Positions 17,201 to 20,200 of a DNA stretch of 64,000 nt are shown in pieces; positions within the stretch are counted from its first letter, which is position 1; each line of letters opens with the position of its first letter. The notes under the pieces are model-generated. The model was not told the DNA's origin. It saw nothing but the letters and a program-made list of their open reading frames with translations, and did no database searches. The stretch is from Liolophura sinensis. Its lineage: Eukaryota; Mollusca; Polyplacophora; Chitonida; Chitonidae. Made by a program: the position numbers and the translations under genes. The stretch lies in contig NC_088295.1 in NCBI RefSeq assembly GCF_032854445.1, positions 61,609,249-61,673,248 of the forward strand. Reading direction: 5' to 3'.

Positions 17201-20200
17201 TAGAGCCCTGCGCAGTGTCTAAATTTACATCTTCAGATGTGTTTTGTTTTCAGGTACTTTAAAGAAGACATTAGTATCATTTATCTACATTAGATAGATA
17301 CATGTACATGTATTGATCTTGGCTTCAGCCTACAGTTTGGGATAGTGCCCCTGTCCCTGAAGATCTTAGTGCTCAGCCATCCTCAAAACACAGAGAGCTG
17401 TACAAACAGTATGAGGATGAGATGAAGCAGTCGTACAAACAGTATTCTGAGGCAAACATGGGGAAGTCGCAGGTCACTGAGGTGAGTTGTATTCTGATGC
17501 TAACATGGGGAAGTCGCAGGTCACTGAGGTGAGTTGTACAAACAGTATTCTGATGCTAACATGGGGAAGTCGCAGGCCACTGAGGTGAGTTGTACAAACA
17601 GTATTCTGATGCTAACATGGGGAAGTCGCAGGTCACTGAGGTGAGTTGTATTCTGATGCTAACATGGGGAAGTCGCAGGTCACTGAGGTGAGTTGTACAA
17701 ATAGTATTCTGAGGCTAACATCGGGAAGTCGCTGGTCACTGAGGTGAGTTGTACAAACAGTACTGTGACGCTAACAAGGGGAAATCCCAGGTCACTGAGG
17801 TGAGTTGTATAAACAGTACTGTGATGCTAACAAGAGGAAGTCCCATGTGTCTGAGGTACACGTGGATACATGCAACATTAAAGAGGGAGTGGTTAAGAAA
17901 GTGTGGCTTGAATCCCGGCCTTGGACAGAAAATTAGTGGATTCCCTTAATCTGACCATTAATGGGGCCATGTTGAAAGTGATTAAAATTAAAACTCCTGA
18001 GTTTCTTTGCCCAGTCCAGTGTTTGTTTCACTTGTCTTTCACCGATATTGCATGTGTATCTGTGCGTCACATAGTGACATCAGCAATTAGGTAAAGGTTG
18101 TTGGTGACTCCAGGTTCCTCACTGACCCCTATCGAAGAAGTGAAAAATTCACAACAATCAAATAAATACATGTATTAAGTTAATTTTACTTAAACAATTA
18201 AACATTTCAAAAATGCACCCAGCAAAAGGAAGAGCACGATTGTCATCACTGTCAACAACAACTCTGTCTTCCCGTAAGTTACTGGACAATTTGTGGACAA
18301 TTGGTCTGTTCTTTTTAGCCAGTACCACTCAGGTACACATGTAATTATAAGAGGAGTACACAGTTTCTCTATTCTCACAAAAAATGGAAGAGTAATTTTT
18401 GGATTTCAGCATTACTAATATTTGATTTCAAAATATGAAGAGTTATGGTATTCTTTTTTGTGTTACTCTTATCAGGAGGATGTGAACAGAGCGGTGGAGG
18501 CCGTAAAAAACACGTACACCAAGTCGGACTCCCCCAGACTGAGGGACAGTGAGGACCTGAGTGAAAGCGGTGATGAGGAAGAACAGCTGCAGCTCTCATA
18601 CACCAACAAGTCATTCCCGTCTTTTCAAGACTCCAAGAAGATGGATGCTGTAAGATTGCTGCAGTAGTATCAATAAAAGGTTGTGTCTAGAGCTGTTCAT
18701 ATGCTAATGTAATTCATGGCGGTTGGACATGTTGTGATGGTGTTTCTTGAGTATTACGGGGGCATTCTAATCATTGAAGTTGGCTAATTCATTTTATCAG
18801 TTGTAATTGGATGAAACGAGTTAAGTGTATGTATCATATTTTTCCCCCAAAAGTGTACAAGACATTTAATTTCTAAGACTTTCTTACAATCTCCAGATAT
18901 ATAGTACCTGAGACATTCCTGTCCCTTCCCTTTCACTTCTGACCAAAAAATTATGGAACTAAATCAGTTTTTCTTCATGCTAGCATAGTTTGAAAATGGC
19001 TGTATTTTGAATGTATGAAATATCGCAGCCATATTATGGAGAGATCATGTTTAAACCATGAGACAGTCAATGGTTTTCAAGGCGAAAAGGACAAATATAG
19101 ACAGACTTTTTTAAAGCCAGCTAAAATGACACAAACTTCATATAAAATTCCAAAAACAGTTTATGTTTGTAAAATGTATATGATTTAGAAATGTGTATAG
19201 AGATATTCAAAAGAAGTATACAGGTATCTTATGTATCGTTTGCCAATAGGCATTAAAAAATTGTGATTTATGTTGAGCTTTGATGATAATACGATAAATT
19301 TAGTCGCCTTCATATTCAGTGTTAAATACACGTACGTATATTTTCAAGCTATTTGTTCATGTCTTTGGGATGTAGTCATTACAGAGCTTTTCATGCTTCT
19401 TTGATATTTCTGTTGCATTTCGTATCTTTCAGACAGAATTTGAAGAGTTCAAAAGGAAGCAGCATCTCATAGAGACTGTAATGGTTGACCAGCTGTCAAG
19501 GTATTTCTTTGAGCCTAGGACTGTATGAATTTAGCAGCCTGAGGGTAGACCCAGCTGATTGTATGTGTAACTGTTATGATGAAACACGGGTGTGGGTTTC
19601 TTTTGGGCTCTGCCCGGTGTCCTTCCACCATAATGCTGGCCACAGTTGTATAAGTGAAATATTCTTGAGTACGGCGTAAGACACCAATAAAATAAAAAAA
19701 TAAATTCTGCTATTTTATTTCCTTCAACCGTAAATCAGACCACGATCATCAAAGTGACAAAAAAATGATATAAATAGATGAATAGATGAATTCTTATCCA
19801 GGGGCCTTCGTGGCCAAGTGGTTATGGTGCTAGTGCAGCTCAATGACCCAGGAATCTCCCATTGTGATCGAATGTAACTCATGCAGGCTTCCCCTCCAAT
19901 CAAACGTGAAAATGTCTGCCAGCAAACTGCAGATGGTTTGCCCTGGTTCCTGCCAACATAATACTGGCCACCATTGTATAAATGATATATTCTTGGGTAT
20001 GGCATAAAATACCATTCAAACAAATGAATAAGTGATTCTGATCTTGATGAGAAATGGTAACTATAATTAACTGGACACCACTGTTGTTGTTGCAGAGCTG
20101 TAATCAGTGCACCTGAACAAGACACCCGCCCTGCCCCCAGGTCTCACAGGCCAGGTATGCCCCGGGGAACCAACAGATCACTCCATGAATCCAAGTAAGA

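Follow-up and report, generated by a model that had tools for sequence, protein, structure and literature searches.

A 64,000-nucleotide stretch of Liolophura sinensis DNA (NC_088295.1; hereafter the window) carries a coding exon, probably of the calcyphosin-2 gene (CAPS2), whose end and 5' splice site (donor) are repeated in a tandem array (17433..17857, + strand). We consider it distinctly probable that this is a donor-spanning minisatellite of the type known from human F7 and ABCA7, which would have been born at the exon–intron junction itself and in which the first donor would be used nearly always. The array thus belongs to a known kind, and its interest lies in the recurrence of such arrays within one genome and in a choice of donor that can be tested.

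Structure of the array and its effect on the reading frame

Counting either strand, the motif GAGGTGAGT occurs seven times in the window, always on the + strand between 17479 and 17805 (starts at 17479, 17526, 17582, 17638, 17685, 17741 and 17797). Dinucleotide shuffles gave a mean of 0.33 copies, and 0 of 100 reached seven. Tandem Repeats Finder detected periods of 56, 103 and 159 for the array, which is built from units of 47 or 56 nucleotides (nt) with a higher-order period of 159 nt. The motif count, the shuffles and the detected periods together confirm that a tandem array copies the exon end and its donor, as an earlier sequence-only reading of this DNA had proposed. The array, at C1:61626677-61627105 of the 609-Mb, 632-contig assembly, consists of the exon end plus seven intronic units. 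It is contiguous with the presumed donor of the exon, its unit includes 48 nt of exon end, and six of the seven later copies have an intact donor motif.

The in-frame donor 1, presumed to be the true one, lies at 17482..17487 and is followed on the same strand by donors 2 (17529..17534), 3 (17585..17590), 4 (17641..17646), 5 (17688..17693), 6 (17744..17749) and 7 (17800..17805). Donor-to-donor spacings are 47/56/56/47/56/56/56, ending at 17856, where a different site, GAG|GTACAC (17856..17861, +), forms the right edge. The seven GAG|GTGAGT donors share an identical 11 nt, and the six expected beyond the first were all found where they had been placed. The claim that the donor had been copied eight times stands for seven intact donors; eight is reached only by counting in the weak site at 17856, probably the original one. 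Both 47-nt units are identical to each other and nine nt shorter than the 56-nt units. The exon copy agrees with the five 56-nt units, taken in order, at 46, 47, 45, 42 and 38 of 49 positions, so that resemblance falls with distance. Downstream of 17857, no degenerate copies stood out above shuffled sequence (129-231 of 300 shuffles scored as high), and the predicted RNA structure of the array was not unusual (z -1.2). A coding past of the distal units was rejected, the third-position excess being weak (P 0.09 for five array units, 0.05 when the exon was included). A run of three or four G residues lies about 25-35 nt past the donor in six of the seven intronic units (17507-17781); G runs near donors are a possible splicing-enhancer context.

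Translation across all donors showed that only the first keeps the frame. Through donor 1, the exon at 17336..17481 (+; acceptor AG at 17335, alternatively 17328; peptide ending ...GKSQVTE) joins the next exon, 18476..18649 (+; 174 nt, acceptor with an 80% pyrimidine tract, donor GCT|GTAAGA), in a stop-free open frame of 106 amino acids. Once donor 1 is passed, a TGA at 17530..17532 (+) is in frame. Donor 2 adds 47 nt, puts exon 18476 out of frame and meets an early stop within it, and the TGA is included in every extension made by donors 3 to 8 (+103, +159, +206, +262 and +318 nt for donors 3 to 7). All extended forms therefore meet a stop, either at 17530 or early in exon 18476, ahead of further exons; the frame effects agree with the sequence-only reading. 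Both unit lengths equal 2 modulo 3, and simulated retention of one to eight consensus 47/56-nt units gave an in-frame, stop-free extension in 0 of 510 combinations. It follows that every downstream donor would be non-productive, for such arrays up to the size simulated.

The pairing of each donor with the 5' end of U1 was computed using what we take to be the U1 5'-end sequence. All seven array donors gave -10.8 kcal/mol, the site at 17856 gave -5.7, and seven other hand-placed donors of the region ranged from -3.2 to -9.2 kcal/mol. Among 3,882 GT sites scanned on the + strand, 11 were as strong as the array donors, 7 of these being the array donors themselves. Since pairing is equal at the seven, intrinsic strength cannot decide among them.

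The host gene had already been named as CAPS2, an identification that is now probable on the strength of the domain match to joined exons. PH_CAYP2 was matched in Pfam at E 0.066 in a raw frame scan, and at E 6.3e-5 (23.1 bits against a cut-off of 27) when three exons, covering part of the domain, were joined. The calcyphosin-2 PH match falls on an exon at 22255..22348 (+) and continues in one at 24154..24272 (+), and an EF-hand-like exon follows at 27479..27575 (+; 18.2 bits, below the Pfam cut-off of 25); the borders of all three were placed by eye. With the PH and EF-hand scores both below cut-off, the identity is not proven, and the array-bearing exon itself had no convincing Pfam family match.

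Origin of the array

The right-hand limit of the array is sharp, with homology to the next unit ending after GT. When the unit is cut as GAGTTGTACAAACAG...CTGAGGT, it matches exon positions 17395-17483 at 53 of 56 nt, provided that 33 nt are skipped; these form an in-frame block (17413..17445, +) that is present in the exon and missing from the array units. The sequence TACAAACAGTAT stands before this block and again at its end. An ungapped alternative, with the exon copy taken from 17428, matches an array unit at 52 of 56. The array unit starts with GAGTTG, and the exon has GAGCTG at 17395..17400 (+), which we propose as the left breakpoint of the founding duplication.

From this anatomy we suggest that a founding tandem duplication reached two bases past the exon, into an intron starting GTACAC, and joined ...CTGAG|GT, at a weak original donor, to the GAGCTG inside the same exon. 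The junction would have placed a strong new donor, GAG|GTGAGYTG, where the exon used to end, and would have displaced the original GTACAC donor to the right edge of the array; later slippage may then have multiplied the unit, with one 9-nt deletion. The site at 17856, where U1 pairing is weaker, had been described as a decayed donor. That description is probably wrong: given the sharp edge after GT, the site is more likely the original donor than a decayed copy. On this model, a duplicated segment that opens with GAG and stops directly after AG|GT makes a stronger donor at its junction, so that arrays of this kind can arise without first harming the gene.

Among the matches listed at E <= 0.001, the only other match to the array was a 74-nt stray copy at C12:1043232-1043305, and no second allele of the array was found among them in this one assembly. 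The stray copy, which came to light after the junction-origin model had been framed, reads GAGGT|GAGCTGTACAAACAGTAT, also written GAGGT|GAGCTGTACAAACAGTATcccGATGAG and GAGGT|GAGCTGTACAAACAGTATcccGATGAGG. It carries the exon's own GAGCTG, with its C, as well as GATGAG, resembling part of the 33-nt block, and it supports the proposed junction. Junction-like matches beyond the array and this copy numbered six, against four for a control, and none of the six resembled the array over a longer stretch.

We rejected the C12 locus as a second CAPS2 gene: over about 20 kb on either side, four exon queries matched only the copy itself, save for an EF-hand match of 16 residues at E 0.73, and a Pfam search of the + strand over the inner 19.8 kb found nothing at E 0.01. 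The stray copy lies in an exon-like open stretch of 66 nt (C12:1043213-1043278), with a pyrimidine-rich, acceptor-like site on its 5' side and GTGAGC on its 3' side. A separate 56-bp minisatellite of about 23 copies (94% match; C12:1043472-1044770), with a unit containing CACAGGTATACC, lies about 170 nt away.

Similar arrays elsewhere in the genome

We searched the whole genome for patterns of three motif copies separated by gaps of 20-50 nt. The three-AGGTGAGT pattern was found at 1,277 places, against 507 for the pattern written backward, and by our own grouping the places listed include at least 14 arrays on contig C1, up to 10.45 Mb. For AGGTAAGT there were 626 places against 468 backward, with at least 20 arrays on C1 among the places listed, up to 93.4 Mb. 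The control AGATGAGT, in which a one-base change kills the donor, gave 247 places against 541 backward and two C1 arrays among the places listed. Because large arrays weigh heavily in the number of places, we relied on the C1 array counts.

The sequence 5' of the first listed donor was inspected for 34 C1 arrays; in about a dozen, array-like copies continue upstream and the array start was not clearly reached. Peptides of 16 arrays were searched in Pfam, six of them also against PDB sequences, and the other 18 were judged by eye. At least seven of the 34 start at an exon recognizable by homology, and six of these seven copy the exon end as the CAPS2 array does. The exons concerned match ankyrin (array 830k; Pfam 2.3e-9), an iron-only hydrogenase family (5471k; Pfam 1.8e-12), presumably Nar1-like, Core-2/I-branching enzyme (3203k; Pfam 4.1e-6), glycosyl hydrolase 31 (26353k; Pfam 4.2e-13) and tissue alpha-L-fucosidase (5265k; PDB 2.5e-11, with a Pfam match at 5.9e-4 that is below cut-off). 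The remaining two, 4178k (C1:4178252-4179798, 48-bp units) and 4191k (C1:4191908-4192014, 33-bp units; Pfam HEAT below cut-off), match the PDB 'helicase-like protein' 7zb5 at 9.5e-19 and 3.9e-11, respectively. We take this protein to be Mot1, and the two arrays probably open two introns of one Mot1/BTAF1-like gene.

In five arrays (830k, 4178k, 4191k, 5471k and 3203k), the 24 bases that end the exon are found again ahead of later donors with 15-22 of 24 matching, and the first 12 intronic bases recur at 9-12 of 12, with two exceptions of 6-7 of 12 at donors where the sequence stretch ends. By eye, 26353k, whose own donor is GTATGT, also copies its exon end; in 5265k the copying is confined to the donor side (exonic match 8-11 of 24). 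Five further arrays (6950k, 10448k, 53595k, 65801k and 92376k) have an open frame before the donor and gave no homology match. Because 49.6% of 750 random GT sites also have at least 100 nt open, we rejected an open frame as proof of an exon and counted only homology. An exon that matches 2-oxoglutarate dehydrogenase (PDB 2.6e-22) has its donor about 700 nt before array 6705k, and 4657k and 4348k lie about 100 nt and about 1 kb beyond an exon-like stretch. For the rest of the remaining 22 arrays, that is, besides these three and 4678k and 54809k, which may or may not begin at an exon, inspection by eye, with peptide searches for some of them, revealed no sign of an exon.

The seven of 34 are not in themselves an enrichment, since real donors are also common among single AGGTRAGT sites; that AGATGAGT arrays are scarce is a better sign of one. 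By its sequence, the CAPS2 array thus appears to be one of several such arrays in the genome rather than a special switch of CAPS2. A wider generalization, on which we are tentative and which we put at somewhat under even chances, is that in this animal minisatellites arise repeatedly, and across the whole genome, by duplication of an exon end with its donor, in which a junction ending in AG|GT makes its own strong donor and a preference for the first donor shields the gene.

The window contains other repeats. An 83-bp tandem repeat in three copies (98%) at 53647-53897 has no GTRAGT donor motif on the + strand. A dispersed repeat, at most about 150 nt long, is present at 10243-10936, 19605-19705, 20867-21018 and 24644-24707, and also at unrelated loci (L010, L013 and L014) with 75-94% identity. 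A bacterial promoter scan was set aside as irrelevant, and one exact 22-nt pattern had 0 matches in viral contigs.

Choice among the donors

The closest known systems are human. In F7 intron 7, which has a 37-bp repeat unit as against 47/56 nt here, only the most upstream donor is used in the normal condition (PMC6627357). The 25-bp variable number tandem repeat of ABCA7 intron 18 begins at the donor of exon 18 and reaches about 427 units (PMC5954066). Like the CAPS2 array, it starts at an exon donor, and retention of one unit leads to a frameshift and a premature stop; that isoform makes up 2 +/- 1% irrespective of array length (PMC5954066). The ABCA7 unit begins with GT and is not described as including an exon end, whereas the CAPS2 unit carries one. 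The ABCA7 length effects described there are exon 19 skipping and lower expression, with both of which array length correlates, and differing proportions of the frameshift isoform were excluded by the authors as the cause of the lower expression (PMC5954066).

Two further systems invite comparison. In UBC and VCX3A, dual-specific AGGT splice sites lie within tandem repeat units (PMC10809524), so that a splice motif is repeated in each unit as in CAPS2; there, however, the same AGGT works both as a donor and as an acceptor, and intron length is a whole number of units, whereas the AGs of the CAPS2 array lack a pyrimidine tract. Introns can also be gained by tandem duplication of an exon segment bearing AGGT (PMC4974935, PMC2891723). 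The CAPS2 array likewise duplicates such a segment, but it shows no evident new intron, an existing donor having been duplicated instead.

By analogy with F7, the first donor of the CAPS2 array would be used nearly always. The later donors may be silent, may act as spare U1 sites, or may yield a few per cent of stop-containing (+47-nt) transcripts, which would be degraded. Because the leftmost copy is the one that keeps the frame, growth of the array would be tolerated only if donor choice favors the 5'-most site, and growth past this frame-critical donor fits best if first-donor choice prevails. The anatomy and frame effects given by the sequence-only reading are sound, as are the two alternatives that it set out, poison-exon extensions or harmless competition, and variation in copy number between individuals is plausible. 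That the array sets the level of CAPS2 transcript is possible but, judging from the human arrays, unlikely. Such a regulatory array, with later donors used often, perhaps tissue-specifically, and array length setting the amount of functional mRNA, would agree with the equal strength of the later intact donors, the stops that they all yield and the negative correlation of ABCA7 array length with expression (PMC5954066). We hold it to be unlikely, since the ABCA7 one-unit isoform stays constant with length, frameshift-isoform proportions were excluded as the cause in that report, and F7 normally uses its first site only (PMC6627357).

The other explanations are less probable still. Arrays are hard to assemble, and an artefact or a wrongly resolved array might be suspected; the graded differences among units (77-100% identity) and the second copy of the junction on C12 make this improbable. 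It is slightly less credible that splicing uses 17800, the last of the strong donors, or one from the middle of the array, with the frame misannotated or the gene in the course of being lost. This would follow from in-vitro competition between duplicated donors, but the 106-amino-acid frame across 17482/18476 and the recognizable PH exons argue for a working gene, and every later donor brings the 17530 stop or a frameshift. Least credible of all is that each unit is a small intron or a microexon spliced inside the array (a branch-like TGCTAAC, then CAG|GTCACTGAG|GTGAGT). TGCTAAC or CGCTAAC followed by CAG is present in five of the seven intronic units, and introns born by tandem duplication are known (PMC4974935). 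Nonetheless, the units are merely 47-56 nt long, and pyrimidines make up 35% of the 20 nt upstream of the intronic CAGs (25% ahead of the exon's own CAG), compared with 80% at the real acceptor; no usable acceptor was found inside the duplication, the array AGs having no pyrimidine tract before them.

Several observations weigh against a junction-born array with a dominant first donor. In classical in-vitro work it is often the intron-proximal donor of a strong pair that is favored, and on that rule 17800 would be used. Invariance of the donor columns (P 0.046 over nine columns, 0.08 for the longest run, and 0.006 over 14 columns picked after looking) is weak evidence of constraint. As to origin, a boundary placed at GTG|AGTCG would cost two substitutions, by a count made by hand, without any 33-nt change, and appears nearly as economical, so that the junction model would lead its rivals by few events; moreover, the body of the C12 copy is of the array type (GATGCTAAC), and the stray may accordingly derive from the array rather than from its ancestor. 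As to recurrence, the backward controls are noisy and not all favorable, a meaningless word reaching as many as 541 places. With these points taken into account, a minisatellite of the F7/ABCA7 type, used at its first donor, is still the reading that we prefer.

Work on how one 5' splice site is selected from a group has for the most part relied on artificial duplicates. The seven identical donors of this intron, together with the comparable series elsewhere in the genome, are natural tests of that selection, and in CAPS2 the frame provides a built-in readout, in which donor 1 leads to protein and any other donor to a stop. If exon-end duplication does recur as a mode of minisatellite birth, dozens of genes or more would hold series of near-identical donors, from a handful to about 20 in each. 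Scanning and proximity models predict opposite use of the sites in such series, and array length could tune splicing or let it evolve.
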